In this document: positions 1,313 to 54,246 of the stretch, one piece after another
Numbering within the stretch: the first letter of the stretch is position 1
Layout of the letters: every line of letters begins with the position of its first letter
From: Corallium rubrum
Taxonomy: Eukaryota; Cnidaria; Anthozoa; Scleralcyonacea; Coralliidae
DNA length: 64,000 nt
Direction of reading: 5' to 3'
Assembly (NCBI GenBank): GCA_964035015.1
Contig: OZ036001.1
Location: 16,543,611 to 16,607,610 of the forward strand
Made by a program: the position numbers and the translations under genes
Notes under the pieces: model-generated
The model's database searches: none
Told to the model about the DNA's origin: nothing
Seen by the model: the letters and a program-made list of their open reading frames with translations, nothing else

Positions 1313-1313
<1 letters not shown>

Positions 1314-5903: not shown

Positions 5904-6116
5904 AACAGTTTGTTTATCAGACAGTATTACCACTAAGGACAAGGTCAAACATTTTAATTTAATTTAGTCTTTTATTAGATGTTTACGAGTAATGGAGACA
6001 ATCCGGTTTCTAATGTTCTTTGATCATTTATTTGAGTGAGATGAGAAATATGATGTTTTGGAAGCTTCTGAGTGAAACCAGAACCGCCAATATCTCATGC
6101 CTTAAAGAGATAGTTT

Positions 6117-6590: not shown

Positions 6591-6705
6591 AAAATATTTT
6601 TGAAATATATAATATTATCAATTAACTTATTTTGTGTTTCAAGTAAAACAAAAGGTCCGCTATGCGTACATGTATCTGCGCAAACCCACCACTGTGAGAA
6701 TCATG

Positions 6706-6815
6706 TCAAGATCTTGTGTGATCTTGGAAAATCTTGTAAGATCTTAAGAAAAAATTTAAGATTTTTACACATAGATCTTATAAGATTTTAGCGAGATCTG
6801 ATAAGATAATTAAAG
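6706..6815. repeat. Degenerate GATCTT cluster
   Basis: A 110-base stretch with repeated AAGATCTT, TGATCTTGG, AATCTTGTAAG and ATCTTATAAG words, a low-complexity degenerate short tandem repeat. Function unknown. Confidence 0.6.
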
Positions 6816-7072
6816 AGAAAGTACACGTTCTCTGACCTTAATATTTTTTATCATGACTCATCATGACTCACAAAAACTGTGGTAGATCACACTCACAAGT
6901 TTACTATAAGTCACGTTAAAAATACTTAACCAGTTTATCAGCAATATCCCCTGTCTCCGAAATGTTTTTGTGCAAAACTTTGTCGGAAATATAGAATTTA
7001 ACGGCTAACTGGCCGGAAGATATATCCCAATGGCCAATAATACGCCTACCGCGGGTCTAAATGCCCCTGAAT

Positions 7073-8243: not shown

Positions 8244-10429
8244 AGTATCCCTGAATCATACTACTCCAATCATACAGCATTGCAATTGACTTTCTTCGAA
8301 AATAATGTTGTTCTTCGTCTCACTCCGTAGTTCATACAACATGGCGAGGAAATATAAACAGTCACACTACTGCACACATTACAGGTCAGCGGTTACACCA
8401 AAAAGTTAACCCACACACACACACACACACAAACACACAACGCGATAGCAATATACCTGCGCGTTGCGCAGATACAAAAACTGTTGCCGCGGCATTTACG
8501 CAAAGTGGATGATGTTTCAATGTTTTGGAAGACTTGTGAAGACGGTCTGATTCAAGTTTTCCTGCATGACTTTCGAAGACGTCTTTTTCCGGACGAGTAA
8601 AGTTGTTTCATAAACCACGAATTTGTATGATTACGATTTACGACCTGTTTCCAAAATCTAATGTACATTTAATATAAGCCTCCTCCGCAGGCAACTCTCT
8701 GTTGATTTTATACAAAAATAGCGCGGAAGGTTTGCTTCTATTTGTCCCTTGAGTTGCTCATACCGCTTGCAAAATGGTAAAGGATCGGAATACATGAAGA
8801 TAATACACGCATAAAAATGCGAAAACATGGCTAATAGGTTACCAGTTTTCTAGACAAATTTACCAAATATTCCTGTCAGTAAAACACCTTGCCGCGTGCG
8901 TATCGAATGTCCAAAAAATATATATCTTCCGCCGCAATTGGTTTTGTCTAGCCTATACGTCGATAGGTGCGGTGATAAGTGCGTAAATTTTAGCGTGTTT
9001 TACGACCCTCGATCAACTACCCTCGACCCTCGACTTGCAACCCTCGACACTCGACCCTCGACCAAAATCCAAACTCACTTTAGTTAGTAAACGTTTGCAA
9101 AATTCCTACTGATAAATATTTCACAATATCACTTAAATCAGAGTGAGTTAAGGCTCACGTGGATTAAAAACTGACAAGTAAAATTCTTGATTTCTTTCAC
9201 CATTGTTCCAGGAAGAGTTCGGGTTTAGGTCAAGGGTCGTGAATTACACTAAAATTATTTTTGAAATATAATAAATATGAATTAGTTATTTTTTGTTTCA
9301 AGTAAAAAACTCTTGTCGCGGCATTTACGAAAGTGCACGATGCTTCAATCAGTTCAATGTTCTGGAAAACTTCTCAAGAAGGTCCAATTCAACCTTTCCT
9401 GCATGTATGGCTTTCCAAGACGGCTCCCCTTGACGAGTAAAATCGTCAAACGTTAGAGTAAAAACGATGAAGTTGTTCCACAACATCAGTGCGCATGAAA
9501 GGGTTAAAACTAACATATGGCTTCCCACGTCGAAATCTAATGTACATTAGGTTTGGCCTAGTAAGAATGCGAAAAGTATGGCTAATAGGTTACCAGTAAA
9601 AGTCTTGGGGGCAGGATTTTTGTAGACAAATTTACTAAATATTTCCTGTCATTAGTGCCGAGTAAACACCTTTTGCCGCGCGCATGAAATGTCCAAAACA
9701 TATATATCTTCCGCCAAAATATTATTTATGCCGCTAGAAGGAAATAAATTTTAGCGTATTTTACGACCCCCAACTTGTTACCCTCGACAATCGACCAAAA
9801 CCCAAACTCCTGCCGTCTTTCTTACATGCGTTTATTTTCTAGGGGATTAGGGTATAGGATTTATATTTTAAAATCTTGCACAATATTTTCAAACATGGGT
9901 TTTATAGCATAGTCAAAAACATGCGTGAATGTTTAATATGATCAAATTCGTATGTTGAAGCTTCGAGCTTTTGTTCACTTAGGCAATTGTATAGTTAAAA
10001 TCCAATATAACTATCATTTGTCTGTGTCCGTACTATGGAAGACATATCCGTAGTAACTCAATCAACAATTTATTTGTTGCATTTGTGCAATCATGATGCT
10101 GCAATAGTACCTTCTACGTGCGCAAAACGCTAAATGTAATCGTCTTAATAAGAATACCCGTGAATGAGTTCAACAGACAGAGCACTTGTGCATTTATATC
10201 TTTATAAATGAAGACTTTTGTATTTACATCTGTCTTTTTAGATTTAACCAAGCTTCAAAAGGTGGTTTTGCTATGATCCTTAATTAAAAATCGAAAATCT
10301 TTTTCTGTTAATCAACCCGTTGTGTCCGACTTAACACTTAGTAAATTTGAAATGAGACACGTATATTTGCGCAATCATGGCAATCAAAAATATAAAATCT
10401 CTTTCAACAATTACGCGTATATATGTACG
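7130..10429. repeat. Right copy of 3.3 kb direct duplication
   Basis: Colinear with 1-3304 (offset 7129, then 7125 after the shorter (CA)n). It contains the satellite, (CA)n, the internal duplication and the unrecognised 600 bases. The frame at 8896-9087 is the twin of 1771-1962 and is not a gene. Downstream the two copies part company inside the PLE arm. Confidence 0.92.
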
Positions 10430-10607
10430 TAATATGTCTAATCCAATAACCTTATTTGAAGTATCGACGACAGATCAGTTTCAGTCTCGGCTAATAAACG
10501 TAAAGGAATGTATTTTATTAACCGTTTGTTAGTAAGCGATTAACCAAATTTCCGGCAGATTCCGTTGATTCCGTCGATTCCGTTGATTCCGTTAAATAGA
10601 GATGCCG
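10430..10607 (+). repeat. Solo PLE terminal repeat
   Basis: Third copy of the PLE arm (compare 3305-3490). It is followed not by coding sequence but by about 170 bases absent from copy 1 (10608-10780, containing a hammerhead), then by TGTTATCGAGCACTC, which also follows the arm at 3491. Copy 1 has therefore lost an internal piece that this copy keeps. Confidence 0.8.
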
Positions 10608-10701
10608 CAACAAAAGCCATGAATGCATGTATTGTTTCGCCCCCACACTCCCACGTTCCGGCAGGAAGGATATAAGCACCCCCTGTTTTCGAAAATTGTC
10701 A

Positions 10702-10744
10702 TCTGCCTGAAGATTCTTTTTTAGATGAAACAGCCTGTTGCAGA
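10702..10744 (+). ncRNA. Hammerhead ribozyme, weak stem II
   Basis: TCTGC then CTGAAGA (10707-10713), a T-rich stem II (TTCTTTTTTAGAT, three pairs after a U-U mismatch), GAA, stem III ACAG/CTGT around a single C, T at the cleavage position (10739), then GCAGA, which pairs perfectly with TCTGC as stem I. It lies just downstream of a PLE arm, where PLE hammerheads are known to occur. The weak stem II suggests low activity. Confidence 0.6.
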
Positions 10745-10818
10745 CTTTTGAGGTAAGCGAAAATCTATTTGCTCTAACTATATGTTATCGAGCACTCTGC
10801 GTTTCGTAGACAAAAACC

Positions 10819-10822
<4 letters not shown>

Positions 10823-10853
<31 letters not shown>

Positions 10854-10889: not shown

Positions 10890-10962
<73 letters not shown>
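10823..10962. repeat. (TA)n microsatellite
   Basis: About 140 bases of TA with AACATA interruptions. Frames reading YIYI here on either strand are repeat translation, not genes. Confidence 0.95.
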
Positions 10963-10963
<1 letters not shown>

Positions 10964-11019
10964 AATGTCAGAGTCAAAATCATATAGATTAGAGTGCTCA
11001 ATACCGAAGTAGAGCGGAT

Positions 11020-11142
11020 ATAACAATAATAAAAGACAAAGTTGGTTACTTCATTCGAATTTTATTTCACTACAGACTGTTTCGTATGGCAAGTAATACT
11101 TGCCACACTCATCAGGTGAATACTGCGGTTGTTGTTACACGC
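11020..11142 (-). repeat. Left inverted arm of PLE copy 2
   Basis: Nearly perfect reverse complement of 12272-12393 over about 120 bases, bounding a truncated PLE. It carries a hammerhead on the minus strand. Confidence 0.9.
11066..11120 (-). ncRNA. Hammerhead ribozyme in left PLE arm
   Basis: Read on the minus strand it is identical to 12294-12348: stem I UUCAC/GUGAA, CUGAUGA, a ten-pair stem II with loop UAUUA, GAA, stem III ACA/UGU with a three-base loop, cleavage after GUA. It lies on the strand opposite the PLE coding sequence. Confidence 0.9.
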
Positions 11143-12196
11143 TTTCAACAAAACACCAAAGCAGATAGAGAATATCAAGAAAGATATATGCGCAACCTTT
11201 AACGAACACAACCTCAAAATAACTATCGAAGCTAACAAAAAATCCGTCGACTTCCTAGACATCACACTAAAACTCACATCCGGCTCCTACAAACCATTCT
11301 CCAAACCAAATAACATCCCACAATATATTAACCGCCAAAGCAACCATCCTCCTTCAATAATACGCAACATCCCAGAAGCAATAAATAAGAGACTGTCCGA
11401 CCTGTCATCTGACGAACAATCCTTCAATGCAGCCATTCCACCCTACCAAGAAGCGCTCAAGAAAAGTGGATACGACCACACACTGAAGTTTCAACACGAA
11501 CCCGTCAACCCCAGGCCAACAAGAAACAGAAACAGAAAAATTATATGGTTCAACCCTCCTTACAACTCAAATGTCTCCACCAACATTGGCCACAAGTTCT
11601 TGCAACTAATTAACCAATGCTTCCCGGAAAACCATACGCTGAATAAAATTTTTAATCGAAACACCCTTAAACTAAGTTATAGTTGCATGCCAAATGTAGA
11701 AAACATAATCTCCACTCACAACAAACTTAACCTGAAGAAGGAACCCGTGCAGAATACCGCAACCAGAGAAAAGAATTGTAACTGCCGACAACAAAACCTT
11801 TGTCCACTTAACGGCAACTGCCTCACCAAAGGAATCGTCTACCAAGCTACAGTGCACACCAGAAACGACAACAAAGAAGAATCGTACGTAGGCCTAACAG
11901 AAAATGCCTTCAAAACAAGATACGCGAACCACCTAACCTCATTCAGAAACGAAAAGCACAAATCGGCCACCGAACTAAGCAAGCATATATGGAAACTAAA
12001 GAACTCTAACATTAAATTTGATATGAAATGGAAAATAATTAAGAAGTGTAAAACGTACTCTAACGCTACCAAGCGCTGTAACCTATGCTTGTACGAAAAA
12101 TTTATTATCATTTACCACCCTGAACTATGTTCTCTAAATAACAGAAACGAACTCGTATCAACTTGTAGACACCGCAGAAAACATTTAGCTGGTTGA
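11129..12196 (+). pseudogene. 5'-truncated Penelope-like element (RT thumb, linker and GIY-YIG)
   Basis: A 355-codon frame without internal stops. Family homology starts at about 11143, after the inverted arm (KTPKQIENIKKDICATFNE), downstream of where the YxDD motif would lie, so the catalytic RT core is absent. It keeps SVDFLDITLKL, the linker IIWFNPPYNSNVSTNIG, Cys-rich NCRQQNLCPLNGNC and the endonuclease signature GIVYQATV ... SYVGLTENAFKTRYANH. It belongs to the same family as 3664-5815 but is less decayed. The open frame suggests recent insertion; without the RT core it cannot move by itself. Confidence 0.88.
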
Positions 12197-12271
12197 CAGC
12201 CGCATACCATTTTCATAATTAATTATTCAAACATGTAAATACGTCATAGATCAACACATATTAAGTTTCTC

Positions 12272-12390
12272 GCGTGTAACAACAACCGCAGTATTCACCT
12301 GATGAGTGTGGCAAGTATTACTTGCCATACGAAACAGTCTGTAGTGAAATAAAATTCGAATGAAGTAACCAACTTTGTCTTTTATTATTG

Positions 12391-12393
<3 letters not shown>
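12272..12393 (+). repeat. Right inverted arm of PLE copy 2
   Basis: Reverse complement of 11020-11142, running from GCGTGTAACAACAACCG to TTATTATTGTTAT, then a (TA)n tract. It carries a plus-strand hammerhead. Confidence 0.9.
12294..12348 (+). ncRNA. Hammerhead ribozyme in right PLE arm
   Basis: Stem I TTCAC (12294-12298) pairs with GTGAA (12344-12348). The core is CTGATGA (12299-12305). Stem II is GTGTGGCAAG/CTTGCCATAC, ten pairs with one G-U, loop TATTA. GAA is at 12331-12333; stem III is ACA/TGT with loop GTC; predicted cleavage follows A12343. All conserved core positions are present. PLE terminal repeats are a known host of such motifs; activity is inferred. Confidence 0.92.

Positions 12394-12463
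<70 letters not shown>
12391..12463. repeat. (TA)n microsatellite
   Basis: About 70 bases of pure TA directly after the PLE arm. PLEs and other hammerhead elements in this window repeatedly abut TA tracts. Confidence 0.95.
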
Positions 12464-12468
<5 letters not shown>

Positions 12469-12539
12469 TTCTTTGAACGTTTTCATGGCGATAAAGTAAT
12501 ATAAATAAGTTTTGTGGAAACACCACGCAAAATATTTCT

Positions 12540-12583
12540 TTGCTAAGCTTTCGGCCTGTTGACTCAGGCCATCATCAGAGCAA
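12540..12583 (-). ncRNA. Hammerhead ribozyme downstream of PLE copy 3
   Basis: On the minus strand: stem I UUGCU/AGCAA (five perfect pairs), CUGAUGA (complement of 12572-12578), stem II GGCCUG/CAGGCC with a six-base loop after an extra U, GAA, then AGCU followed by U. Stem III has only two pairs with no loop (palindrome AGCU), the short type reported for PLE hammerheads that may act as dimers. It lies 3' of the minus-strand PLE frame. Confidence 0.85.
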
Positions 12584-12691
12584 TGACAACAAGTTGTTGG
12601 CTCACGTCATTTATAAACTAAGCAACTGATCAATTAAATCACGTAAGAATACAATGGCGTATCACGTTAATTTATTAATTAGAAAACAAAA

Positions 12692-14542
12692 TCAAGAATG
12701 TTCTCCGAATAGGGCACGCCACGTGCTATTTAATGGCTGTCCCTCCTGAGAAATAGTGTGATGTTTGGCGATCTCAATGGATTCTCTAGTTCTTCGCGTG
12801 AAGTATTGCTTGTCGCTGGCTAAGAGTGATGACTCTTCCCATTTAACACGATGGTCATACTTCCAAGCGTGTTTGGCAACAGCAGACTTTTCTTGTTGCG
12901 CTTTTATGCAACATGTCTTGTGTTCCTTCAGGCGAGTTGAGAGATTCCTTCCCGTTTCTCCGATGTATACCAAGCCGCACTCACAAGGAATGCGATACAC
13001 TCCAGGCTTAGATAAGCTATCCACTTCATCTTTATGTGTGAAAAGTACCTTGAACAATTTGTGCTGACTACTGTGAAATACCTTCATACCAGCACGATTT
13101 AGAATCCTCTCAATCTTGTGAGATGCTGGTCCGATATACGGAAGAGAAACTGAAGGTGGTTCTTGCTGGGGCTGTGTATTCGGCTCTGGATGTACCGAAG
13201 GAGTCATAGAAGCTTGAATCATCTTCCCAGGGAAACCGTTGTTAGTTAAAACCAACTTAAGGTGATCTAATTCTTCCTGAAGATGTTCTTCGTCGCAAAT
13301 TGTTCGCGCTCGATGAACGAGAGTTTTGCACACAGATGATTTAATACTTGGATGATGGAATGAAGTGTAGTTAAGGTATCTGTCAGTGTGTGTTGGTTTT
13401 CGATACACAGTATGACTTAAAGTCCCATCTGATTTAACGGAAAGCCAAACGTCCAAGAATGGGATAGATTTGTCTTGATTTTGTAATTCCATCGTGAATT
13501 TGATTGAAGGATGTATGCTGTTAAGGTGGTCAAGAAAATTAGACAAAGCATTCAAACTATGTGACCAGGTACTTAGCGTATCATCAACATAACGTTTCCA
13601 CATACCTGGTTTTAACGGGGCAGTTGCAAGAGCCTTCTTCTCAAATTCCTCCATGTATAGGTTAGCCATGATTGGAGACAAAGGGGAACCCATTGCTGCT
13701 CCAGTAGTTTGTTCGAAAAATCTGTTCCGCCATTGAAAACAAGCTGAATTTAGGCACAGCGTTAACAGTTCATAGACCTGATCTGCAGAAAGATTCGTTC
13801 TTGTAGCGAGCGTTTTATCTATTAGAAGTCTTTCTTTCGCAATCAGGCACGCTTCTTCAATGGGAACATTCGTAAACAAACTAACAACATCAAAACTAAC
13901 TAATATCTCATCATTAGACAACTTAAGTGTCTTAATTTCAAGGACAAATTCCTTAGAATTTAATACATGGTGAATGGACTTACCAACCAAAGGCTTCAAA
14001 ACAGTAGCAAGATATTGTGCTAAGGCGTATGTTGGAGAGCCTCGTGAAGCCACAATTGGACGAAATGGGACATTCGTTTTATGAATCTTTGGAAGACCAT
14101 AAAATTTAGGACACACTGAAGCAGAAGGGCGTAAACGTCGGTAGAGGTTTTTAGGTAAACTTTCCATCTTACAAAGTTCTAACAATTTACTAGAAACCTT
14201 ACGTTCAATGCTAGGTGTCGGATCACGTTTTAACTCTCTATAAGTTGGAGTATCTAAGAGAGCACTTACCTTGTTGTTATATTCTTCATGATCTAAAACA
14301 ACAGTAGCATTACCCTTATCTGCTTTTAAAATATGTACTGACTTATCTGCTCTTAGGTTTGATAAGGCAATCTTTTCTTCTTTCCTAAGATTGCTTTGCG
14401 GTAGCTTGGCTAGGCGGATTGTTTCAGCAACTTGGACTCGAATGTTGTTGGCAGTTTCACTCGGTAGGAAATACAGTTTAGGTTCAAGTTGTTGAACAAT
14501 TTCTTCCTTTGGTATAGATCTTGGCACTACCGCAAAATTCAA
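12692..14542 (-). CDS. Penelope-like retroelement protein, reverse transcriptase plus GIY-YIG, intact frame
   Basis: A 616-codon uninterrupted frame of a retroelement enzyme that would copy its own RNA and nick target DNA. N-terminal half: KADKGNATVVLD, FYGLPKIHK, RPIVASRGSPTYALAQYLA. Palm: SFDVVSLFTNVPI, GAAMGSPLSPIMANLY and catalytic KRYVDDTLS. Then IPFLDVWLSV and YRKPTHTDRYLNYTSFHHP. C-terminal GIY-YIG nuclease at about residues 510-590: GVYRIPCECGLVYIGETGRN with Arg in TRLKEH. PLE proteins are often longer at the N-terminus, and the 5' end here turns into an inverted duplication (14551-14628), so the start may be truncated. It is a different lineage from copies 1 and 2. No frameshift is seen, so recent mobility is possible. 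Confidence 0.93.
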   Translation of the reverse strand: MNFAVVPRSIPKEEIVQQLEPKLYFLPSETANNIRVQVAETIRLAKLPQSNLRKEEKIALSNLRADKSVHILKADKGNATVVLDHEEYNNKVSALLDTPTYRELKRDPTPSIERKVSSKLLELCKMESLPKNLYRRLRPSASVCPKFYGLPKIHKTNVPFRPIVASRGSPTYALAQYLATVLKPLVGKSIHHVLNSKEFVLEIKTLKLSNDEILVSFDVVSLFTNVPIEEACLIAKERLLIDKTLATRTNLSADQVYELLTLCLNSACFQWRNRFFEQTTGAAMGSPLSPIMANLYMEEFEKKALATAPLKPGMWKRYVDDTLSTWSHSLNALSNFLDHLNSIHPSIKFTMELQNQDKSIPFLDVWLSVKSDGTLSHTVYRKPTHTDRYLNYTSFHHPSIKSSVCKTLVHRARTICDEEHLQEELDHLKLVLTNNGFPGKMIQASMTPSVHPEPNTQPQQEPPSVSLPYIGPASHKIERILNRAGMKVFHSSQHKLFKVLFTHKDEVDSLSKPGVYRIPCECGLVYIGETGRNLSTRLKEHKTCCIKAQQEKSAVAKHAWKYDHRVKWEESSLLASDKQYFTRRTRESIEIAKHHTISQEGQPLNSTWRALFGEHS

Positions 14543-14550
14543 ACCCAGAG

Positions 14551-14628
14551 AAACCGAGTGAAACTGTCAACAACATTCAAACCTAGTGAAACTGCCAACA
14601 ACATTCGAGTCCAAGTTGCTGAAACAAT
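14551..14628 (+). repeat. Inverted microduplication at the PLE copy 3 5' end
   Basis: 14586-14628 (GTGAAACTGCCAACAACATT ...) is the exact reverse complement of 14418-14460 inside the PLE frame, and a shorter diverged tandem copy sits at 14562-14584. This looks like a rearranged 5' end made during insertion. It places a copy of the same PLE codons on the opposite strand. Confidence 0.85.
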
Positions 14629-25545: not shown

Positions 25546-25584
25546 ATATAGAAAAAGTTCAGACTCAACAGTTGTGATTTGACG

Positions 25585-25642
25585 TTTTATTACTAGTTAG
25601 TTTCGTGACACACGCGTATGGTGTGGTACTCTTCAGATAAAA
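25585..25642 (-). ncRNA. Hammerhead ribozyme, type with long stem II (copy 1)
   Basis: Minus strand: UUUUAU, CUGAAGA, stem II GU-x-x-CACAC/GUGUG-x-x-AC with loop CAUACGC, GAA, stem III ACU/AGU with loop AACU, A at the cleavage position, then AUAAAA, a perfect six-pair stem I. Two stem II mismatches. A 32-base tandem duplication (CAGATAAAATGGTCTAATG ...) follows at 25634 and 25666. Confidence 0.8.
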
Positions 25643-25984
25643 TGGTCTAATGATAATGCGGCTTTCAGATAAAATGGTCTAATGATAATGCGGCTTTCCC
25701 GAGGGGGCAACCCCCGGGCAACCCGCTGGCAACCCACGGGCATGGCACGGGATTTGTTTTAAAATCACGCCCCAGAGACAGGGGATTTAGCCCACTTTTG
25801 TATTTTGTCAAATTACCCCCGGGGACATACCCCCGGGATTTGCACATCTCCTGTTGTTACATGGGTCAGCGGCGATTCGTCGAGAAACGCTTCAAAGAAA
25901 CAATCTCGCGCAACACGAGGTAAGTGTTTGTAATCGAAGAATCCTTCATATTTGGATGAATAATTAAGTTATCCATCACCAGAA

Positions 25985-26046
25985 TGTGCTCTTAATTTTA
26001 AAGAAGAAATTTTGGAAGCCTACGCAAAAAAGTTTGAGGAAAACAG
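25985..26046 (+). pseudogene. SAM-domain exon A, left unit, start deleted
   Basis: Encodes LNFKEEILEAYAKKFEENR before a donor at AAACAG|GTATTC, but the 33 or so bases carrying the ATG and WREFFR of the right-unit exon are missing. This copy cannot start translation at the same place and is probably dead. Confidence 0.75.
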
Positions 26047-26149
26047 GTATTCTTGCGCAGGTTTTGTTCCGGCAATGTCGATGTATTATAAACTACCAGT
26101 ATGCAATGCAACTGTTAATATATCTTGCATGTTTATGTTAAACATGAGT

Positions 26150-26375
26150 ACCTGGGGCCGGGGTTGAAGAAATTGGAATTCTGAAAGAACTATTACACTT
26201 CCCGGAATTCCACATTGCATTTAAAAGCTCCCTGGAAATGTTAAAAATATGGTTATCTCATTGGGCCTCCCATGGAATTCCAAGTAATTTTATAACATGT
26301 TTAATCCCCATTGGAAATTCATTATATTAGAACTTGTATCCCCTCCAGGAATTTCCAAAGTGCTCAACCCCAGGT
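26150..26375. mobile_element. MITE in SAM-gene intron, left unit
   Basis: Terminal inverted repeats CCTGGGGCCGGGGTTGAAG and TGCTCAACCCCAGG bound ~220 bases with internal near-palindromes (TGGAATTCC, TTCCACATTG). A second copy lies at 28209-28440. Confidence 0.65.
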
Positions 26376-26400
26376 GCATGCTTCTAAGATGCAGTTGCAT

Positions 26401-26443
<43 letters not shown>

Positions 26444-26448
26444 GTAAA

Positions 26449-26553
26449 GGTTAGTAACCGAAACCGAGGTCACTATACTGGTTATGAACCGGAGGGCCGC
26501 AGGCCCGAGGTTAATAACCACCATAGTGACCAAGGTTGAGGTCACTAACCGAC
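26449..26553. mobile_element. Palindromic MITE (GGTTAGTAACC type), left unit
   Basis: An imperfect hairpin: GGTTAGTAACCGAAACCGAG at the left pairs with GGTTGAGGTCACTAACC at the right around GGGCCGCAGGCCC. It follows an (ATA)n tract. The right-unit copy is at 28489-28593. Confidence 0.7.
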
Positions 26554-26744
26554 TTCGTTTATTCATGACACAGATGATATTTGTCATTATTTAACAAAAA
26601 AAAGTATTCTAGACATGGTTCTAAAGTGATATAGGAGGTCATTTAATATGCTAGGTCAATAACCTATTTATTAACCGCGGCGGTACATCAAAGATAATTT
26701 ATGCATGAATAAACTAGTGATAATAATCACACAACTATTTGTAG

Positions 26745-26850
26745 GATACAGCAAGAACACTTACCTCAATTAACAAAGGAGTGGCTACAAGAAATGGGCA
26801 TTTCTGTGATTGGGGACATTATGACTATTTTGAGTAGTGCTAAGAAGCAG
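26745..26850 (+). pseudogene. SAM-domain exon B, left unit
   Basis: 106-base exon between acceptor TTTGTAG and donor CAG|GTTAGT, encoding QQEHLPQLTKEWLQEMGIS and VIGDIMTILSSAKKQ, the C-terminal helices of a SAM domain. Identical in coding content to 28784-28889. Its partner exon A lacks a start. Confidence 0.75.
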
Positions 26851-27395
26851 GTTAGTATACAGGAATAAATTAACCTATTCCTGCCCAGGTCAGCCTAGTC
26901 TTTCTTTTGCTGAATAAAATCATCTGACATTAGCTAGAATAGAATATTCTGTTGTTAATTAACCAGAATAAATGGATGAGAAATTCATAAAACTCTGTCT
27001 AGCTTTTTGTGTAGATGAGAGAATGAATAAAATGTTGTAAAACACTTATATTATACAAGCAATATTTCCAGACAAATGGAATATTATTGATATATGTGAG
27101 GACGTCAATGTTCATCAAGCCCAAAATGCTCAGAAAATGTTTCTAAGACTCAGACAGGGATTGAACCTGCAGGGACAGATTCCAGTCACAAACTTGAAGA
27201 ACATTGGCATTATTACAGATATCAATAGTAATATTAAATCGGTCACCTTTACTCATTTAAGTAATATTATTATCCAAGCTTGTACATATGCCACATGTAT
27301 ATCAGTTATCACTTACATCAACTGCTCGATTTATATATATAACGTATATAACATATATAGAAAAAGTTCAAAGACTCAACAGTTGTGATTAGACG

Positions 27396-27453
27396 TTTTA
27401 TTACTACTTTGTTTCGTGCCACACGCGTATGGTGTGGTACTCTTCAGATAAAA
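27396..27453 (-). ncRNA. Hammerhead ribozyme, type with long stem II (copy 2)
   Basis: Second copy of the motif at 25585-25642: CUGAAGA, stem II GU-x-CCACAC/GUGUGG-x-AC with a single mismatch, GAA, a two-pair stem III (AC/GU), A, and the same perfect stem I (UUUUAU/AUAAAA). It sits at the junction between the two duplicated units. Confidence 0.82.
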
Positions 27454-28024
27454 TGGTCTAATGACTAAGATGTAATTACACAGAGAATTATATAAGAATC
27501 TAGATGAGGAAGCTTGTTGAAGTTCTTAACGTCCATTTGTTAGTTTGAATTTTCAAAATTTTCAAAATTTAACCGTTTTTATGCATGTAATGTTATACTA
27601 TAAACATGAATAATCCACTTGAACTAATAGATAAGTAGTTGTCAAAAAAATGAAGGAAAAAAAATGAACAAGAGGTCCCGGAAGGCTTATAATAAGTATT
27701 AAGTATAATGCGGGGTATCAGCGGCTTTCCCGAGGGGGCGACCCCCAGGCAACCCGCTGGCAACCCACGGGCATGGCACGGGATTTGTTTTAAAATCACG
27801 CCCCAGAGACAGGGATTTAGCCCACTTTTGTATTTTGTCAAATTACCCCCGGGGACATACCCCCGGGATTTGCACATCTCCTGTTGTTACATGGGTCAGC
27901 GGTGATTCGTCGAGAAACGCTTCAAATAAACAATCTCGCGCTACACGAGGTAAGTGTTTGTAATCGAAGAATCCTTCATATTTGGATGAATAATTAAGTC
28001 ATCCATCACCAGAATTAAAGGTTC

Positions 28025-28107
28025 ATGGATTGGAGAGAATTTTTTCGTGCTCTTAATTTTAAAGAAGAAATTTTGGAAGCCTACGCAAAAACGTTTGAGG
28101 AAAACAG
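28025..28107 (+). CDS. SAM-domain gene, exon A with start codon
   Basis: ATG at 28025 gives MDWREFFRALNFKEEILEAY then AKTFEENR, ending at donor AAACAG|GTATTC. Together with exon B this forms a SAM-like fold (W...L-x-F ... YAxxFxEN ... LxxMGIxxxGDxxxIL). SAM domains mediate protein-protein or RNA contacts. Part of a multicopy gene that continues at 28784, 30206 and 32226. Confidence 0.72.
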
Positions 28108-28783
28108 GTATTCTTGCGCAGGTTTTGTTCCGGCAATGTCGATGTATTATAAACTACCAGTATGCAATGCAACTGTTAATATATGTTGCATGTTTATGTT
28201 AAATATGAGTACCTGGGACCGGGGTTGAAGAAATTGGAATTCTGAGAAAGAACTATTACACTTCTCGGATTTCCACATGGCATTTAAAAGCTCCCTGGAA
28301 ATGTTAAAAATATGGTTATCTCATTGGGGCTCCCATGGAATTCCAAGTAATTTTATAACATGTTTAATCCCCATTGGAAATTCATTATATTAAAACTTGT
28401 ATCCCCTCCAGGAATTTCCAAAGTGCTCAACCCCAGGTGCATGCTTCTAAGATGCAGTTGCATGTAATAATAATAATAATAAGTAAAGGTTAGTAACCGA
28501 ATCCGAGGTCACTACACTGGTTATTAACCTGAGGGCCGCAGGCCCGAGGTTAATAACCACCATAGTGACCAAGGTTGAGGTCACTAACCGACTTAGTTTA
28601 TTCGTGACACAGATGATATTTGTCATTATTTAACAAAAAAAAGTATTCTAGACATGGTTTTAAAGCGATATAGGAGGTCATTTAATATGCTAGGTCAAAA
28701 ACCTATTTATTAACCGCGGCGGTACATCAAAGATAATTTATGCATGAATAAACTAATGATAATAATCACACAACTATTTGTAG

Positions 28784-28889
28784 GATACAGCAAGAACACT
28801 TACCTCAATTAACAAAGGAGTGGCTACAAGAAATGGGCATTTCTGTGATTGGGGACATTATGACTATTTTGAGTAGTGCTAAGAAGCAG
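28784..28889 (+). CDS. SAM-domain gene, exon B
   Basis: Joins exon A in phase (ENR|IQQEHLPQL) and completes the SAM domain with WLQEMGISVIGDIMTILSSA. Consensus acceptor TTTGTAG and donor CAG|GTTAGT. The intron between A and B carries two MITEs. Confidence 0.75.
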
Positions 28890-29370
28890 GTTAGTATACA
28901 GGAATAAATTAACCTATTCCTGCCCAGGCCAGCCTAGTCTTTCTTTTGCTGAATAAAATCATCTGATATTAGCTAGAATAGAGCATTCTGTTGTTAATTA
29001 ACCAGAATAAATGGATGAGAAATTCATAAAACTCTGTCTAGCTTTTTGTGTAGATGAAAGAATGAATAAAATGCTGTAAAACACTTATATTATACAAGCA
29101 ATATTTCCAGACAAATGGAATATTATTGATATATGTGAGGACGTCAATGTTCATCAAGCCCAAGATGCTCAGAAAATGTTTCTAAGACTCAGACAGGGAT
29201 TGAACCTGCAGGGACAGATTCCAGTCACAAACTTGAAGAACATTGACATTATTACAGATATCAATAGTAATATTATTAAATCGGTCACCTTTACTCATTT
29301 AAGTAATATTATTATCCAAGCTTGTACATATACCACATGTATATCAGTTATCACTTACATCAACTGCTCG

Positions 29371-29416
<46 letters not shown>

Positions 29417-40415: not shown

Positions 40416-40517
40416 CTAAATATTTCCTATTTAACGCACGACGACACAGCTTTTCCCACTATCTTTGTCAGTTATCCTACTTTAGCTGCGGCCCATAGGG
40501 AAACCAACCATATACCC

Positions 40518-43424
40518 ATGTCTAATACCAGACAACTACAATCTTACAACTCAGTAAAATATGTATACAATTCTCCGATACCTGTTAGAATCACTAACCG
40601 ATATGTTGTCTCTAGTCTACGCAGCGCTGGTATAAACAGACAAAGACCTCATATAAGAGCGTCTTACAAATCTACGAATTGTATTAAAATATCTATTGAT
40701 GCAACTGTCAATCGAAACCAATTTGTTCCTCGCATAATGTTGTCGAACACTATGTCACTAGTCCCTAAACTAGACGAAGTTCAGGAATTTCTCTTAAAGA
40801 ATAATGTTGACATCGAATTTATAACTGAGACATGGTTAAAAGATCGTATATTTTACTCAGTTGTAAACATACAAGGCTATACGATTTATCGAAAAGACCG
40901 ATCTATTCAAGAACACGGAGGCGTTTGTATATACATTAAAGATCACATCAAACATGAAATTCCCAACAATTTACAATGTTGTGACGAACACGAAATTTTT
41001 TGGATAAAATTACACCCCACGCGACGACCTCGTAGGTTTTCGTGCATAATTGCCGCAGTTGTTTATCATCCGCCCGCATCGGACATACAATCGATCTCTA
41101 ATCACCTTTTTCAAAGCCTGTCAGCAGCAGAATCCATGTTTCCTAACTGTGGGATAATTGTTGCAGGGGATTTCAACCGCCTTAACACCAGCAGCCTGCA
41201 AAGACATTTCAAGTTAAAGCAGCTCGTGAAGTCTGCTACTAGAGGTCAAGCAATACTCGATTTGATTCTTACAAACATGAGTCAATATTTTTCGTCACCG
41301 GAAACCTCTCCCCCTTTCGGACTATCTGACCACAATACGGTTCTCTTAAAACAAGAAGCTAGAGTAACAGGACAGTCAACCAGGAAACTCATTACTGTCC
41401 GTGACATGAGGGATAGTCGTAAGATGTCACTGGGCCGCTATCTTGGTAACGTTGATTGGTCAATCATGAACTCCTGCAGTGACTGTGATGGGAAACTAGC
41501 AGTCTTTGAGGAATTGGTGAAGATTGGCTTCAATCATATTATCCCTGAAAAAACGATGAAAGTGTACCCTAAGGATGCTCCCTGGATAAGTACCAAAGTA
41601 AAAAAATTGATACGCTTACGTCAGCGTGCCTTTCATTTCAACAGGGAAGGGACTCTTTACAAGTTCTACAGAAACGCTGTAAATAAAGAGAGGAAACTCT
41701 GCAGGGTGAACTACTACGTCTCAAAAGTTCGTGACCTGAAAGAAGTCAATCCCCGTCAATGGTGGAAAGAAGTAAAAAAGTTAAGTGGATCTGGCAGGAA
41801 CAACGACAACGACTTGTTGAACATCCTTAACGTCCCAGAATACGAAAGTTTCTCACGACTGGAAGTAGCAAATGCTCTTAACACAGTCCTTCTGAAACCT
41901 TTACAAGCCTATGAACCACTCGACTCCGGTGCAGCCTATTTAACTGTAGAAGAAGATGCTGATGTTTTTGAGGTTGCCACTCATCGCGTGTATAACACCC
42001 TGTTGCACCTAAATAAGTATAAAGCCTCAGGCCCGGACGACATTCCCAACCGGCTCTATAAAGAAAATGCCGATCTTGTAGCAGAACCCGTTACCGACAT
42101 ACTGAACGCCTCTTTTAGGGATCAGAAGTTGCCCTCCAGTTGGAAACTTGCGAACATATCCCCACTTCCCAAAGTCAAACAGGTCACTGACCCAAAGAAG
42201 GAACTTCGTCCAATCTTCTCACTTACCTCATCCCTTTCCAAAGTTGCAGAAGACTTTGTGGTAGCAGACTATGTGAAACCAGCTGTAACAAAGTCGATCG
42301 ACCCTAATCAGTATGGGACAATTTCCGGTTCTTCCACTGTCTTGGCTCTATTAAGCATGTTTCATAAATGGTTAGGGGAAACTGACGGCACAGGTTCATC
42401 AGAACGGATTCTATTATTTGACTACCGTAAAGCTTTTGATCTGATAGATCATACTACACTCGTTATGAAATTGAAACAGATGGACCTTCCGTACAGCATC
42501 ATTAACTGGATCATAAGTTTTGTCACTAATAGATCACAGAGGGTTAAATTAGGAAAGGACTGTTTTTCGGAGTGGGGAGTTGTTCCATCGGGGGTGCCCC
42601 AAGGAACTAAGTTGGGGCCTTGGTTGTTCTTGGTTATGATCAACGATCTCAATATCGCAGATCCATTTAGCATGTGGAAATATGTCGATGACACCACTGT
42701 GTCTGAGACCATCGTTAAGGGAGAGCAGAGTAAAGCACAACAAGCAGCTGACCAGGTTCATGAGTGGTCAAGAAATAACTTGTTCCAACTTAACTGCGAC
42801 AAAACAAAGGATCTCGTCATCAGTTTCAACCGTTCTTTGCAAGATCAATCATTTCCAACTGTTTACATAGAAGGGAAACCCATTTGTACTGTGACTAGCG
42901 TCAAACTACTAGGAGTTACTATTAACTCTAGTCTAACATGGAATGACCACATCGAAGACCTTATTAAAGGAGCATATAGGAAGTTTTACTTCCTTGTACA
43001 GCTTAAGCGCACTCATGTTCCACATAAAGATCTTGTAATCTTCTATTGTACATGAATTAGATCAAGTATTGATTATGCTTCTCCGGTCTTTCATTATGCA
43101 CTTCCCAAATATCTACAAGCAGATCTAGAAAGAGTTCAAAAAAGAGCATTATCTTGCATTTTTCCAGGGACTCCCTATCAAGACGCGCTAGCTTTGGCAG
43201 GTATTGATTCCATTCATGATCATCACGAAATTCTAACCAAGAAACTGTTTAAGTCAGTTGTGAGAACTCAAATAATAAGCTGAACGACCTACTTCCAAAG
43301 AAAAACACAAATAACATATACGACTTAAGGAAAAAGAGAACCTTTGATGTTCCCCTTGTAAAAGCGAATCGATTTTTTAACTCTTTTATTATGCAAAGTT
43401 GCAATACACATAACAATGAGTGAC
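40518..43424 (+). pseudogene. CR1/L2-type LINE ORF2, endonuclease plus reverse transcriptase
   Basis: The APE-type endonuclease covers the first ~280 codons: LSNTMSLVPKLDEVQEFL, FITETWLKDRIF, GGVCIYIKD, VAGDFNRL and the catalytic LSDHNTV. RT: KYKASGPDDIPNRLYKENAD, FDYRKAFDLIDHTTL, GVPQGTKLGPWLFLVMINDL, catalytic MWKYVDDTTVS. Open from 40518 to a TGA at 43053-43055 inside the C-terminal domain; the same frame then continues (IRSSIDYASPVFHYALP, ERVQKRALSCIFPGTPYQDA) to about 43280, where a frameshift precedes the true end near 43424. A young but damaged copy. Confidence 0.92.
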
Positions 43425-48763: not shown

Positions 48764-50170
48764 ATGGCTGATCGCAGCTATCTTACGTTGTGTCCTCACT
48801 GTGAAAGTTATTTGCCTGGTAGAACGTTTAGAAGACATAGAGAAAGTTTTTTCGATGCACGTAATAATAGATGGGAAAAGGATGAATGATTGTTGGAAAG
48901 CAGTAGTGGAGACGAGACCCCTTTTATGGAAATAAGTCAAGGTATTGATCATTCAGTGTTTCGTGATAGTGATAGCGATGTTGACGACCCCGGGCAACAA
49001 GCCACGGATGACAACTTGGGCGAGTTGCTTAACAACGAGGTATGGGATGATACATTAGTAAATGACATAGATGAGGATTTTAGTGAGAACCATGAAGTCC
49101 CATCTATTGAAGTAAATTCATCAAATCGTTCATCTAGTCGTACCTTAGTTAATTGCTTGATAATATTACTAGCGTACTTTTGGACTTATTTTCGCATATC
49201 TGACAGTGCCATGGAATTTCTTTTGTCTTTCTTAAAAAAGTTTTTTGAAGTAGCAGCGTTATCGAACAATTGGTTTGCTGCGCTGGCATTGGCTTTCCCG
49301 GGAACATTGTATTACTTTCGTAAAGAAATTGGTTTTGTCAAGGACAGTTTTACCAAGTACATTGTTTGCCCAAAATGCTCCGCTATATATAAGTTTGAAG
49401 ACAGTTGTACTGTTGGCAGTAGAAAGGTTTCGAAGACATGCTCGTATGTTAAATTTCCCAATCACAGACAGCGTCGAATGCGCAATCCTTGCGGTACAAC
49501 TTTGTTAAAAGAAGTTACACTAAAAGATGGTACTAAACGTCTTTACCCGCACAAAGTGTACTGTTATAAAAGCATTATTGCCACCTTGAAAGAGTTTGTT
49601 AAAAGAGGGGGTTTTACTGAGAGTTGTGGCGCAACCGTGAAATTCGTTCTGTTCATCAAATTATGTGCGATGTTTTTGAAGGGCGAGTTTGGAGAGACTC
49701 TCAAACATATAGTGGTTCTCCGTTTTTATCTGCTCCACGTAATTACGCTTTCGTGCTTAACGTAGATTGGATGCAGCCATTTGATCACACCCAGTACTCT
49801 ATTGGGGTACTTTATTTAGCTTTAATGAATCTGCCACGAAGTGAACGCTTCAAAAGACAAAATATTTTTCTCGTCGGAGTTATCCCAGGTCCAAATGAGC
49901 CTGAACTAAACATTAATTCATATCTATCCCCACTGGTTGATGAGCTATTGATACTTTGGGAAGACGGAGTATAGCTTAGACATTCGGGATCACCCCTCTT
50001 TCTGGAAGGCTTCAAGGTGGCTTTACTGTGCGTAGCATGTGATATGCCTGCAAGTAGAAAGGTGTGTGAGTTTACTGGGCACAATTCAAGATGTGGGTGC
50101 AATAAATGTACAAAGGAATTTCAATGCTCAGGAATTGGCGAGGCAACTGACTATTCCGGTTTTGAGCCAC
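48764..50170 (+). pseudogene. Tnp2 (EnSpm/CACTA-like) transposase, 5' part
   Basis: ATG at 48764: MADRSYLTLCPHCESYLPGR with CxxC...H...H, a putative DNA-binding finger. A TGA at 48887 is read through to an acidic region (DSDSDVDDPGQQATDDNLGE) and FVKDSFTKYIVCPKCSAIYK. A frameshift near 49630 leads to the transposase core: FLSAPRNYAFVLNVDWMQPF, FLVGVIPGPNEPELNINSYL, a TAG at 49972, then LLCVACDMPASRKVCEFTGH and CGCNKCTKEF. These blocks match the Transposase_21 (Tnp2) family. The gene is cut at 50170 by a DNA transposon and resumes at 52801. Confidence 0.88.
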
Positions 50171-50509
50171 AGGGGCAGATCCAGAGTGTAGCGAAGGATG
50201 CTTAAGCATCAGTCAAAATTTGTAAACAAATACAGAAATTTGATGTATTGCGCATTCTTCTGTACTAATACAGGTCGATAATATGACATCCGTTGTTGTA
50301 GAATACTCAGGCAAAATCAATGTCAAGTTATTAAACTTCGAAGAACTCCGTCTTCTATGATGTTTATTATTCGCGCGTAAATTAATCGAATATTAATAGG
50401 AACTCATCCGATCGGTTTATAGAATTCACGCCCCCACAAGACAAGTTGCCAATGCGTGTGGCTATTTATGTCTGCCCAATCACATCTATTTTTTACAATG
50501 TAGCGCATA

Positions 50510-50612
50510 TTTGGCGGGAGCTACACTGCTTAGACTTAGCCAATCAGGTACATTGTTGAGTATAGCTCAAATTTGGCGGGAGCTATACTGATTAAGAGTA
50601 TCCAATCAAGTT
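50510..50612 (+). promoter_or_regulatory. E2F/CCAAT promoter cluster in nested transposon
   Basis: TTTGGCGGGA at 50510-50519 and 50572-50581 (both inside a repeated TTTGGCGGGAGCTA), with CCAAT at about 50476, 50540 and 50602, and a TATATATT stretch at ~50684-50700. The frame starting at 50782 is the likely target. Confidence 0.6.
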
Positions 50613-50781
50613 TTTTGATGGGCGATGCTTGCATGTTTAGGCAATTTGAGTAAACACGAAGTCATAATCGCGCCTGGTGCGCTTTTATATATTATATATT
50701 ATTTGTCTCGAGAAGACACTACCAAAACAGTGAGAACCGCGGTGAGACAAATATCAGTGGAATATTCGCTCAAATTGTGTG

Positions 50782-51040
50782 ATGTCTGAGCTCTTACTAG
50801 AGTTAGAAAGGCTAGTACCTACGGACGCTGAAGACGGACTGCAACGTGTCGTCAAGAAAATGTAGTGCGTTTAAAGCAGTTTTGTCTTGACAAGCTCGCA
50901 AACGTTGTAAATGAATATGAGCAACATGACCATGGACCGGGGTGCCCTGAAGGAAATACATCGTTGCGCGTTAGTCAATTTAGTGACCTCCAGTTTCCTA
51001 ATGGTCAAAGGATATGGTCAGGCGAACTACGACCAGTAAG
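50782..51040 (+). pseudogene. First-exon-like frame of the nested transposon
   Basis: MSELLLELERLVPTDAEDGL then VVK, a frameshift near 50860, then VRLKQFCLDKLANVVNEYE and LRVSQFSDLQFPNGQRIWSG, ending at a donor-like CCAGTAAG|GTAAAT. Family unknown. The downstream exons appear to be missing, replaced by repeats. Confidence 0.4.
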
Positions 51041-51284
51041 GTAAATAAACGTTCATATATCTGTATGATGATCAAACAATTTTAAATAACTATAGATTTT
51101 TACAGAAGACCTTCGCGCAACAATTCATTATTTTGTTTTATCTTAAAGAGCATTTTGCCTTTATATGCTAATTTTAATAAACCAGTGAGTAGTTGTGATA
51201 ACATTTGTGCTTGATTTTATATGCGCACGGTGACGCGGTACATGTTTGGAAACATTGCGTATAATTTGCCACACGGTTTTAAGG

Positions 51285-51409
51285 CTATGTGCACACGGTA
51301 ACGTTTCCAACCGTTTTCGTATTGTTTCAAGTAATGAACTGATTGTTCTCGATTCCCTTGAGAACAGCAAACAATGCAAAAACGCTCGGAAACGTTACCG
51401 TGTGGACAT
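51285..51409. repeat. Imperfect inverted repeat (CACACGGTAACG)
   Basis: TGTGCACACGGTAACGTTTCC at the left is matched by GGAAACGTTACCGTGTGGACA at the right, with further pairing (CGTATTGTTT / AAACAATGC) and a ~45-base centre. Probably another MITE inside the nested transposon. Confidence 0.7.
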
Positions 51410-51528
51410 CGCGCATCTCTCGCAGGCTACCGCATTTCACAGCTGTTGAAATGCGTTTGCCATTGGGATGGAGTATATACACTATTGTAGACTACAGCAG
51501 CGGTGTAATGTTTGAAATAGGTTCGTAG

Positions 51529-51591
<63 letters not shown>

Positions 51592-51597
51592 TTCAAT

Positions 51598-51639
51598 CCA
51601 CAGACACGTGTTTCGCTGTACTACAGCTCATCAGTATAG
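51598..51639 (-). ncRNA. Hammerhead ribozyme, satellite unit 1
   Basis: Minus strand: CUAUA, CUGAUGA (complement of 51628-51634), stem II GCUGU/ACAGC with loop AGU, GAA, ACACGUGU (four-pair palindromic stem III), C at the cleavage position, UGUGG. Stem I has five pairs with two G-U wobbles. Confidence 0.87.
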
Positions 51640-51872
51640 CTTGGAACAATCTGAATGAATTTCACCAATTACTTATACACATGCGATCGTCGGTGACAAC
51701 CGCATGTGGGAGAGCATCGGTGAAGTACATTCAGATAATGTGAAGTGTGCATGGGCCCAGAGTGCTCAAACTTCCACAAGGGTAGTGAGCGTTGCATTAT
51801 CGCCAATAGGTACCCATGGCAACTTCACAGAGTGCTCAACAACACCGAAGTGAAGGAGCGTACATAGTTCAA

Positions 51873-51915
51873 TCTACAGACACGTGTTTCGCTGTACTAC
51901 AGCTCATCAGTGTAG
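51873..51915 (-). ncRNA. Hammerhead ribozyme, satellite unit 2
   Basis: Same core as unit 1, with stem I CUACA/UGUAG perfectly paired. Differences from unit 1 in both strands of stem I preserve or improve pairing. Confidence 0.9.
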
Positions 51916-52149
51916 CTTGGAACAATCTGAAGGAATTTCACCAATTACTTATACACATGCGATCGTCGGTGACAACCGCATGTGGGACAGCATCGGTGAA
52001 GTACATTCAGATAGTGTGAAGTGCGCATGGGCCCAGAGTGCCCAAACTTCCACAAGGGTAGTGAGCGTTGCATTATCGCTAATAGGTACCCATGGCAACT
52101 TCACAGAGTGCTCAACAACACCGAAGTGAAGGAGCGTACATAGTTCAAT

Positions 52150-52190
52150 CTACAGACACGTGTTTCGCTGTACTACACTCATCAGTGTAG
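52150..52190 (-). ncRNA. Hammerhead ribozyme, satellite unit 3, damaged stem II
   Basis: Same motif with perfect stem I (CUACA/UGUAG), but one base of stem II is deleted (plus strand CTACACTCATCAG instead of CTACAGCTCATCAG), which disrupts the first pairs. Probably weak or inactive. Confidence 0.75.
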
Positions 52191-52297
52191 CTTGGAACAA
52201 TCTGAATGAATTTCACCAATTACTTATACACATGCGATCGTCGGTGACAACCGCATGTGGGACAGCATCGGTGAAGTACATTCAGATAGTGTGAAGT

Positions 52298-52349
<52 letters not shown>

Positions 52350-52800
52350 AACTTCTAGCAATTGCCTTCCAATATATATTTCCGTCAAAATGAACCTGAC
52401 TGTAATTTATTTTATTTGGTAATATCAGTTTTAAATTAATCATTCGTGATGTTTAAGTATTGATGTGATTGCTTGTATTGCTTTTTATTTCTATCGCTTT
52501 TAACTTGAATATTTACAATTTGTTATATTTTCTACAAAGATCGATAGTTTAAGCTCTTGTTAAAATGACGTAACGGAGGTGTCAAATTTCCCTAACAATA
52601 AGATTTACAGTAAAGATGATGTTCTATGTTGTTGGTGTCATGAGATCACTCATGATTTGCTGTATTTTTACAAATTCCTGGCCTTTTCTGACATAACATT
52701 CCATACAAACTATGACATCATATACAGGTTATGACGTCATATACAGACTATGACGTCGTAAAGCTGCACTCAATTTTTTTGCTGGATCCGCCCCTCAGCC

Positions 52801-54246
52801 ATGCCCTCAAGAAATACGGTTCAGCACAGAAGACAAGTAAGAGAAATACAAGAAGAACGTACCCAAGACGCGCGTAATGCAAAAGAATCCTTATACGGAG
52901 TACGGTACTCTGAGCTGCTTAGGTTACCATACTTTGACTGCGTAAGATTTACAATAGTTGATCCTATGCACAATCTGTTCTTGGGAACTGCTAAACGCAT
53001 GATGGAAATTTGGCTTCAATGAAATATTTTGACGCGAGCTGATTTGGAAGCTGCCCAGAATAAGGTAGACGCAACGCATGTTCCATCGAATTTAGGTCGG
53101 ATTCCATTTAGGATTGCAACGTCATTTGCTGGATCTACCGCAGAACAATGGAAGGCCTGGGTCACTGTTTTTTCTTCGTTTGCTTTGTTTGGTCATCTTC
53201 CTGACAACGATTACATTTGTTGGGTGAAATTTGTCATGGCTTGTAAACTACTGTCGCGACCATTGATAAAGATAGCAGATGTAGGCGTGGCACACGCTCT
53301 TCTCCATGACTTTTGCAGTGCCGTGGAACAACTATATGGTAACTCTCGCATTACCCCAAATATGCATACGCATACTCATTTAGCGGATTGCATTTTAGAT
53401 TACGGTCCCATATACAGTTTTTGATTGTTCAGTTTTGAACGGTATAATGGTATACTAGGCGATTACTACACAAACAACAAATCAATCGAATTGCAAGTGA
53501 TGCGAAAATTTTTAAGAGATCAGAACTTAAGGAACTTAGAATTTCCAGAAGAGTTCAAGGGGCACTTTGAACAAATGATTGATAAATTGGAACAGAGTAA
53601 CATCGACGTCTCTGGAGTTGATGTAAAGGCCTTGATTAATGTTCTTCAGTTAAGTCAAGATCGCATTGATTTAACAGATGACTTACGGTTCTCAGTTGCT
53701 GATATTCTTTTGGGTCACCACACGTTGTAGAAAATTTCGATGATGACGAGCTTCAGTACACCGCGGAGGTGTATAAGCTTTTTCTTCCAACAATATCATC
53801 TCAGGATATCCCGCAACTGTACGACAAATAAGCGTCTGTCGAGTGTGCTGGAGAAAGATACGGATCTGAGTTTTCTCGTCTGAATCGCTCTTCATTTGTT
53901 CTCGCTAGATGGGTTGGTAGATTTGACGGTAGCGTCGATGCTGAAACTGCAGATGAAAGGCCGTGTGTCATCCGGTATTTTGCAAAGCAGTCCATTTGTT
54001 TCGGTCTTCGTAGATGTACCTTTTGTTTTGCACGCGTTAGCTGGTTTCAGCGCCACCTTCATCAGTTCCTGTGTGGCAGATCCGAAGGAACCCCTAAAGT
54101 TTGGTGCGCTAACGTATTCGAGAGTTTTGGTCCTGCGTCGTTCATACCAGTCCAACGAATTTCCAGAAAATACATAGCTGGGTATGACAAGGTGGGTGGG
54201 GAAAACGTTCTATTTGTGTTGCCATTGGAGAAGAAGTCCCTTTTAT
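52801..54246 (+). pseudogene. Tnp2 (EnSpm/CACTA-like) transposase, 3' part
   Basis: Continues the gene cut at 50170: PSRNTVQHRRQVREIQEERT, YGVRYSELLRLPYFDCVRFT, VDPMHNLFLGTAKRMMEIWL (signature DxMHNLFLG), stop at 53020, IPFRIATSFAGSTAEQWKAW, PNMHTHTHLADCILDYGP, stop at 53422, FSFERYNGILGDYYTNNKSI, a frameshift near 53722 and a TAA at 53829. Then SFVLARWVGRFDGSVDAETA, a C-terminal domain with WFQRH and SFIPVQRI. The stops and shifts make it dead; the family call is firm. Confidence 0.88.

Follow-up and report, generated by a model that had tools for sequence, protein, structure and literature searches.

The closest described relatives of the element analyzed here are the animal non-LTR retrozymes (PMC7229834). 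As presented in the available text of that paper, they resemble our element in their tandem noncoding units of a few hundred bp and type I hammerhead with a short stem III, in the strongly paired circle predicted for the unit, and in sharing a genome with Penelope-like elements (PLEs) that carry minimal hammerheads. Targeting of TA microsatellites, a fixed 3′ start, and a hairpin in common with PLEs are not described in that text, and the 276-bp length of the Corallium unit is a further difference. Plant LTR retrozymes also have hammerhead-made circular RNA as presumed template, but the available part of PMC4918200 gives them LTRs, a PBS, and 4-bp TSDs, and that of PMC7229834 type III hammerheads; the hammerhead of the Corallium retrozyme is of type I, and its (TA)n shows no obvious 4-bp TSD.

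Among PLEs, PAc elements (PMC11167929) are alike in having a hammerhead near the end, an internal start of reverse transcription, and an AT-rich target, and their two adjacent starts give ends with and without a tail, as in PLE2, described below. The main PAc template is unprocessed RNA (PMC11167929). In contrast to PAc, whose start and cut site are not homologous, the retrozyme is noncoding, and its start word and target can pair. A preference of Penelope for AT-rich targets was already known (PMC11167929 and the available part of PMC3846280). In its accessible text, a 2020 review (PMC7761336) describes repeats, which we take to be the animal ones, without a conserved motif revealing their autonomous partner, and the Discussion of PMC7229834, as far as available, names PLEs as a strong candidate mobilizer, without such a motif.

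Here we analyzed an array of Corallium rubrum that lies in a stretch of 64,000 nucleotides (the window; assembly GCA_964035015.1, contig OZ036001.1, positions 16,543,611 to 16,607,610). Judged from its sequence, the element belongs to a known kind, the non-LTR retrozymes of animals; what is new is how it seems to move.

A Tandem Retrozyme Array Nested in Two DNA Elements

TRF run on the window found a period of 276 with 2.6 copies and 97% matches at 51588–52303. Together with genome-wide relatives, this delimits a minus-strand array (51588–52303) of two full 276-nt units and a 5′-truncated third, its 3′ end lying at low coordinates. The direct repeats of about 275 bases claimed in the original prediction are thus confirmed, between (AT)n runs at 51532–51591 (3′ of the retrozyme) and 52302–52347 (5′ of it), which TRF and flank analysis mark as the probable target microsatellite. 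The TRF array, descriptor matches, and genome-wide relatives likewise support its reading as a tandem hammerhead retrozyme, and three hammerhead cores on the minus strand agree with the predicted sense strand. The suggestion that the family may be undescribed may be right for the sequence family, which is perhaps unlisted, whereas retrozymes of this kind have been described from animals (PMC7229834, available text).

Unit length (276 bp) and GC content (47.5%) are within the range of animal non-LTR retrozymes (∼150–450 bp, GC <50%). The unit is noncoding, the longest stop-free stretch in a unit trimer being 91 aa, and its predicted circular RNA is 70% paired (MFE −93.5; z −4.3 against 200 shuffles). 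The two window units differ by 3%, and the window array therefore looks old.

The array is hosted by a multicopy 2.6-kb TIR DNA element (50170–52796, ends CAGGGGC..GCCCCT) with AGCCA on both sides (50165–50169 and 52797–52801). Upstream is a fragment of a Tnp2 transposase gene (49681–49974, plus strand; PF02992 tnp2, E 2.3e-15), and the predicted nesting of retrozyme in TIR element in Tnp2 gene holds on the strength of this match and the AGCCA flanks. Six TIR paralogues were fetched among 40 scored places; all six have (TA)n at the array site without the retrozyme, and one carries another insert in its (TA)n.

Two other features of these elements were observed. To the right of the array, adjoining the (TA)n, 52348–52377 (TTGAACTTCTAGCAATTGCCTTCCA) is inverted relative to the fetched paralogues and lacks part of their hairpin, which we read as a local inversion. 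One TIR paralogue (L048, about 290–344) has, in the same (TA)n, a short tail piece, including the hairpin, of the PLE-like family E3 described below.

A search of the genome (474 Mb, 312 contigs) with the unit yielded 755 candidate places; the 40 that were scored contain 95 matches. The exact word at the junction of two units is found 79 times, its reversed control not once. Sequence was fetched for 39 loci, each with flanks of up to 3 kb, and the window array brings the sample to 40; these are the best-scoring of the 755 candidates, so full units are favored in the sample. The arrays are dispersed and have 1 to 10 units each (10 in L021).

Hammerheads of the Array

Each unit has a CUGAUGA-stem II-GAAA core on the minus strand. 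Units 2 (51867–51923, type I) and 1 (51591–51647, with two wobbles in stem I) pass the hammerhead descriptor, with cleavage predicted after C at 51879 and after 51603, respectively. Unit 3 (52143–52198) matches the core and fails the descriptor, one stem II base being deleted. Stem I has five pairs, extendable by an outer GUUC/GAAC helix; in stem III two pairs are possible, with a palindromic ACGU tetraloop. The descriptor gave five matches in the window, two of them in the array, and two altogether in 300 dinucleotide shuffles.

Rfam at gathering score gave zero matches in the window. In E-value mode, Hammerhead_1 scored 22.4 bits (gathering 34; E 0.013) at 52190–52150 (minus strand), and HH9 scored 21.3 bits (gathering 52) at 51927–51857 and 14.6 bits at 51649–51587 (both minus strand). 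A covariance check of the predicted ribozyme thus does produce hammerhead scores, but all are under the curated cut-offs. Rfam also gave higher scores to miRNA and other families where the TA runs lie, which we took as simple-repeat noise. The three-way junction was absent from minimum-energy folds of single hammerhead segments, and the minimum-energy circle shows neither a full hammerhead nor hairpin 1 (below). Such folds often miss hammerhead three-way junctions. A hammerhead-pattern search for relatives in viral and prokaryote collections gave no matches in either.

Across the examined loci, 54 of 86 hammerhead copies are identical to the 57 nt of unit 2. The stem I wobbles of unit 1 had been taken as evidence that base differences respect pairing; the wobbles are present, but that argument is contradicted by the 80 copies of 57 nt (six copies of other length were excluded), in which 18 pair changes occur; pairing survives in 4 of them, 4.5 being expected at random, and none is two-sided. 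Because pairing is retained no more often than by chance, we read the wobbles as decay. Rare variants are equally dense in the 57 hammerhead columns (29) and the 219 others (103); shared variants number zero and six, respectively, too few to judge.

Arrays End in TA Microsatellites

The TA tracts are the array's most telling feature. The original prediction treated them as borders; they are present on both sides, but we read them as more, namely as an insertion target that points to the mobilizing machinery. Of 39 scorable loci, 36 have a TA run of at least 12 within 60 nt of the array 3′ end, against a background of 1.1% of window positions and 59 of 3,895 flank windows (range 1.1 to 1.5%). 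L044 was left out of this count although its flank is (TA)n, and the three misses (L025, L043, L047) have shorter or other repeats there. Other terminal repeats are (CTAT)n in L047 and an AGATAT-type repeat in L018. Among 35 new junction-word loci, a further 10 also end in TA runs by eye. On the 5′ side, such a run is present in 31 of 39 loci and missing in 8.

The 3′ end falls at a nearly fixed unit position, just after GAUUGAACUAU, while the 5′ end varies; the exact end word is missing in 6 of 40 arrays. At each of 34 array ends the base that follows GATTGAACTAT is A; at unit-unit junctions it is G in 50 of 52 cases. By this pattern, the terminal base appears to follow the target, not the unit, and the word UAUGUA between units (51861–51866 and 52137–52142, minus strand) is the putative start of reverse transcription. 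The ends look as if a TA-repeat DNA end had been primed on the UAUGUA of a circular or multimeric RNA, since a TA primer on this word, with one T·G pair, would leave just such a terminal A. As far as flanks can tell, the TA tracts are the insertion target.

At the 5′ end, 14 of 39 arrays begin at the unit start and 25 are truncated. Truncations begin at alternating A/T in 14 of 25 cases against a unit background of 12.7%, a figure somewhat inflated by alignment overrun into the TA flanks. Truncations at 61, 64, 109, and 206 recur; segmental duplication was considered as their source and rejected, no flank match >80 nt being listed between loci that share a truncation, and microhomology would fit better. 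Flanks of other loci do have dispersed repeats in common.

A separate observation is that array 5′ ends (L009–L047) cluster just 5′ of the two hairpins described below, at unit positions 1 and 61–64. Such clustering could reflect microhomology, or copying that stops at a bound hairpin.

Circular or Multimeric RNA as Probable Template

Every array examined (40/40) includes at least one unit of at least 265 nt. The start word lies only ∼15–18 nt from the 5′ end of a hammerhead-cut linear monomer, yet arrays hold full units; such a monomer therefore cannot be the template, which leaves a circle or an uncut multimer. Divergence between units of one array is 1.4%, against 2.7% by chance (0 of 2,000 shuffles as low), and in L026 seven units are alike at all compared bases (gaps and the last 14 columns excluded). 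Homogenization after insertion could add to this likeness.

PLEs in the Window and in the Genome

Several hammerhead-bearing PLE-like ends in the window adjoin TA runs. Among the five strict hammerhead matches, three have a TA run of at least 12 within 170 nt (background 3.4%); another is internal to the array, and the last has a TA run of 10. PLE2 (10962–12391, plus strand) is a 5′-truncated PLE with an ORF at 11150–12196, a hammerhead at 12299–12343, and a 3′ end in (TA)n at 12392; an inverted copy of its end (10962–11142) includes a hairpin at 10991–11015 (minus strand). PLE1 (12464–14566, minus strand) has an ORF with a reverse transcriptase domain (RVT_1, E 7.7e-9), its 3′ end in PLE2's (TA)n, and a hammerhead-like core at 12578 (minus strand) that does not pass the descriptor. 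E3 (10690–10823, plus strand) is the 3′ end of a third PLE-like family, with a hairpin at 10771–10798 followed by (TA)n.

The C-terminal GVY..VYIGETGR of PLE1, read by eye, may be GIY-YIG-like. Pfam gave no GIY-YIG match in PLE1 and no match at all in PLE2, and PLE1 matched only distant reverse transcriptases among NCBIfam and PDB sequences. The direct protein link between PLE2 and PLE1 is weak (E 3.9e-4). A window element at 4282–5683 has a weak match to PLE1 in its reverse transcriptase part (E 2.5e-4) and, after it, a strong match to PLE2 (E 1.7e-71); this element would tie PLE2 to PLE1, as would structure. PLE2 has a hammerhead, an inverted terminal copy, and two kinds of 3′ end, short and with a tail. 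Scoring 40 of 398 candidates gave 46 PLE2 matches, 44 of which share its last base. Among 20 ends fetched of the 46 matches, 18 are in TA runs of at least 12, the remaining two being in broken TA-rich sequence; ten have the tail and ten are short, with nine of each in TA.

Other structures in the window involve similar parts. Two different PLE-like elements have their 3′ ends in the (TA)n at 12392–12463, which they enter from opposite sides. At 1–10607, PLE-like ORFs (3610–5815) lie between the copies of a 3.5-kb direct duplication (1–3490 and 7130–10607, 99.5%) that has 206-bp tandem repeats; the whole could be one PLE whose terminal repeats are very long. At 25551–29373 (minus strand), a tandem dimer of a 1.8- to 2.0-kb noncoding element, its units 94% alike, has hammerhead-like motifs near each 3′ end (25636 and 27447, of which the second alone passed the descriptor), and TA-rich repeats border the dimer on both sides; the whole appears to be either a large retrozyme or a non-autonomous element derived from a PLE.

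A Hairpin Common to the Retrozyme and PLE Tails

Directly 3′ of UAUGUA is hairpin 1, GCUC-(CAC UUCG GUG)-GAGC-ACUCU (unit 2, 52105–52135; unit 1, 51829–51859; both minus strand). The hairpin occurs twice per unit, 4 nt past the copy start and again at unit positions 71–102, where hairpin 2 is found (unit 1, 51759–51790, minus strand; its unit 2 copy, 52035–52066, minus strand, is mutated to GGGC). The PLE2 tail starts with GCUC-stem-GAGC-ACUCU. Measured from the last base common to the TA end and the continuing sequence, the hairpin begins 2 nt further on in PLE2 and E3 and 4 nt further on in the retrozyme.

GCUC..GAGC hairpins are also present in E3, in PLE-like ends of L010, L016, and L018, and in copies of the tail in L026 and L033. 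Upstream of the hairpin, PLE coding sequence is present at L010 and L016 and, in the case of E3, at L011; no match to a PLE protein was obtained for L018, L026, and L033. Throughout L009–L053 the hairpin word was observed in retrozymes and otherwise just in nine tails of E3 or PLE-like type; upstream of two of these tails there is no whole hammerhead. The word GCTC-N6..24-GAGCACTCT, defined after being seen, occurs five times in the window and in none of 200 shuffles. The PLE2 tail was found through the PLE, independently of the retrozyme; its alignment score to the unit was reached by 25 of 5,000 shuffles, and its match in register with the copy start by 1 of 5,000.

We built a covariance model from seven PLE hairpins and zero retrozyme rows. 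In the window it ranked its own two members first and then three retrozyme hairpins at modest E-values (rough ones, the calibration being short): both copies of hairpin 1 (19.4 bits each; E 0.037 for unit 2) and hairpin 2 of unit 1 (19.0 bits, E 0.045). The next matches had E-values of 0.38, 0.54, and 0.96, and the mutated hairpin 2 scored 12.1 bits (E 1.4). This ranking is partly circular, and we lower our estimate a little on that account: E3 entered the model by eye, for the word, and four further rows through a search with it, the two PLE2 rows being independent. With arms assigned by hand, 29 of 30 inner hairpin pairs are paired, against 54 of 88 when arms are swapped between families. 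Covariation within the PLE hairpins is weak: there is a single two-sided change, and 139 of 500 shuffles do as well. The PLE2 and E3 hairpins fold as drawn, and retrozyme hairpin 1 prefers a different, longer stem.

Proposed Mobilization and Its Alternatives

We consider it quite probable that the element is a non-autonomous retrozyme living off PLEs, whose proteins are the likely mobilizer. With more reserve, we lean toward a circular, SINE-like PLE parasite with two hairpins marking the start of reverse transcription, whose RNA circle would be copied lap after lap into TA microsatellites primed by the repeat. In such a cycle the minus strand would be transcribed across the array, the hammerheads would cut the transcript to a 276-nt RNA, and a host ligase would close the circle. 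A PLE protein (reverse transcriptase plus endonuclease) would then bind the hairpin and nick TA-repeat DNA, the nicked TA end would pair with UAUGUA (one T·G wobble), one or more laps would be copied, and the 5′ end would be joined via TA-like microhomology.

The least probable of the other accounts, to which we give hardly any credence, is an ordinary DNA satellite grown by unequal crossing-over with the hammerhead as passenger: arrays of up to 10 units, as in L021, and possibly some homogenization would agree with it, but the loci are dispersed, their 3′ end is nearly fixed, and the terminal base appears target-derived. It is also improbable that the TA runs are a 3′ tail made by reverse-transcription slippage, as in LINEs with microsatellite tails, and not the target. 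The 8 of 39 loci with no 5′ TA run of at least 12 would suit a tail, but the run is there in the other 31, all six fetched TIR paralogues without the retrozyme already have one at that place, and the other terminal repeats, (CTAT)n and AGATAT-type, are as expected of a target.

A mobilizing LINE instead of a PLE, with the TA target and the GAGCACTCT word being coincidence or an ancient captured piece, strikes us as unlikely, if less so. LINEs are present (RVT_1 plus endonuclease at 40416–43055), and Nematostella retrozymes have LINE-like 15-bp TSDs according to the available part of PMC4918200. Against this stand the hairpin at a matching offset of 2 or 4 nt, twice per unit, the register match reached in a single shuffle of 5,000, and the limitation of the word in L009–L053 to retrozymes and the nine E3 or PLE-like tails. 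The Nematostella TSDs (PMC4918200, same part) do imply that not all animal retrozymes need the TA/PLE route. By title or abstract opening, in a literature search that covers subscription journals thinly, we found no report of a link between PLEs and retrozymes through hairpin, target, and terminal base.

For the Corallium retrozyme, a common hairpin, a common target, and an apparently target-derived base together make mobilization by PLEs a testable claim, with a defined RNA, DNA, and protein. This claim bears on a question open in print, namely which enzyme spreads animal retrozymes.
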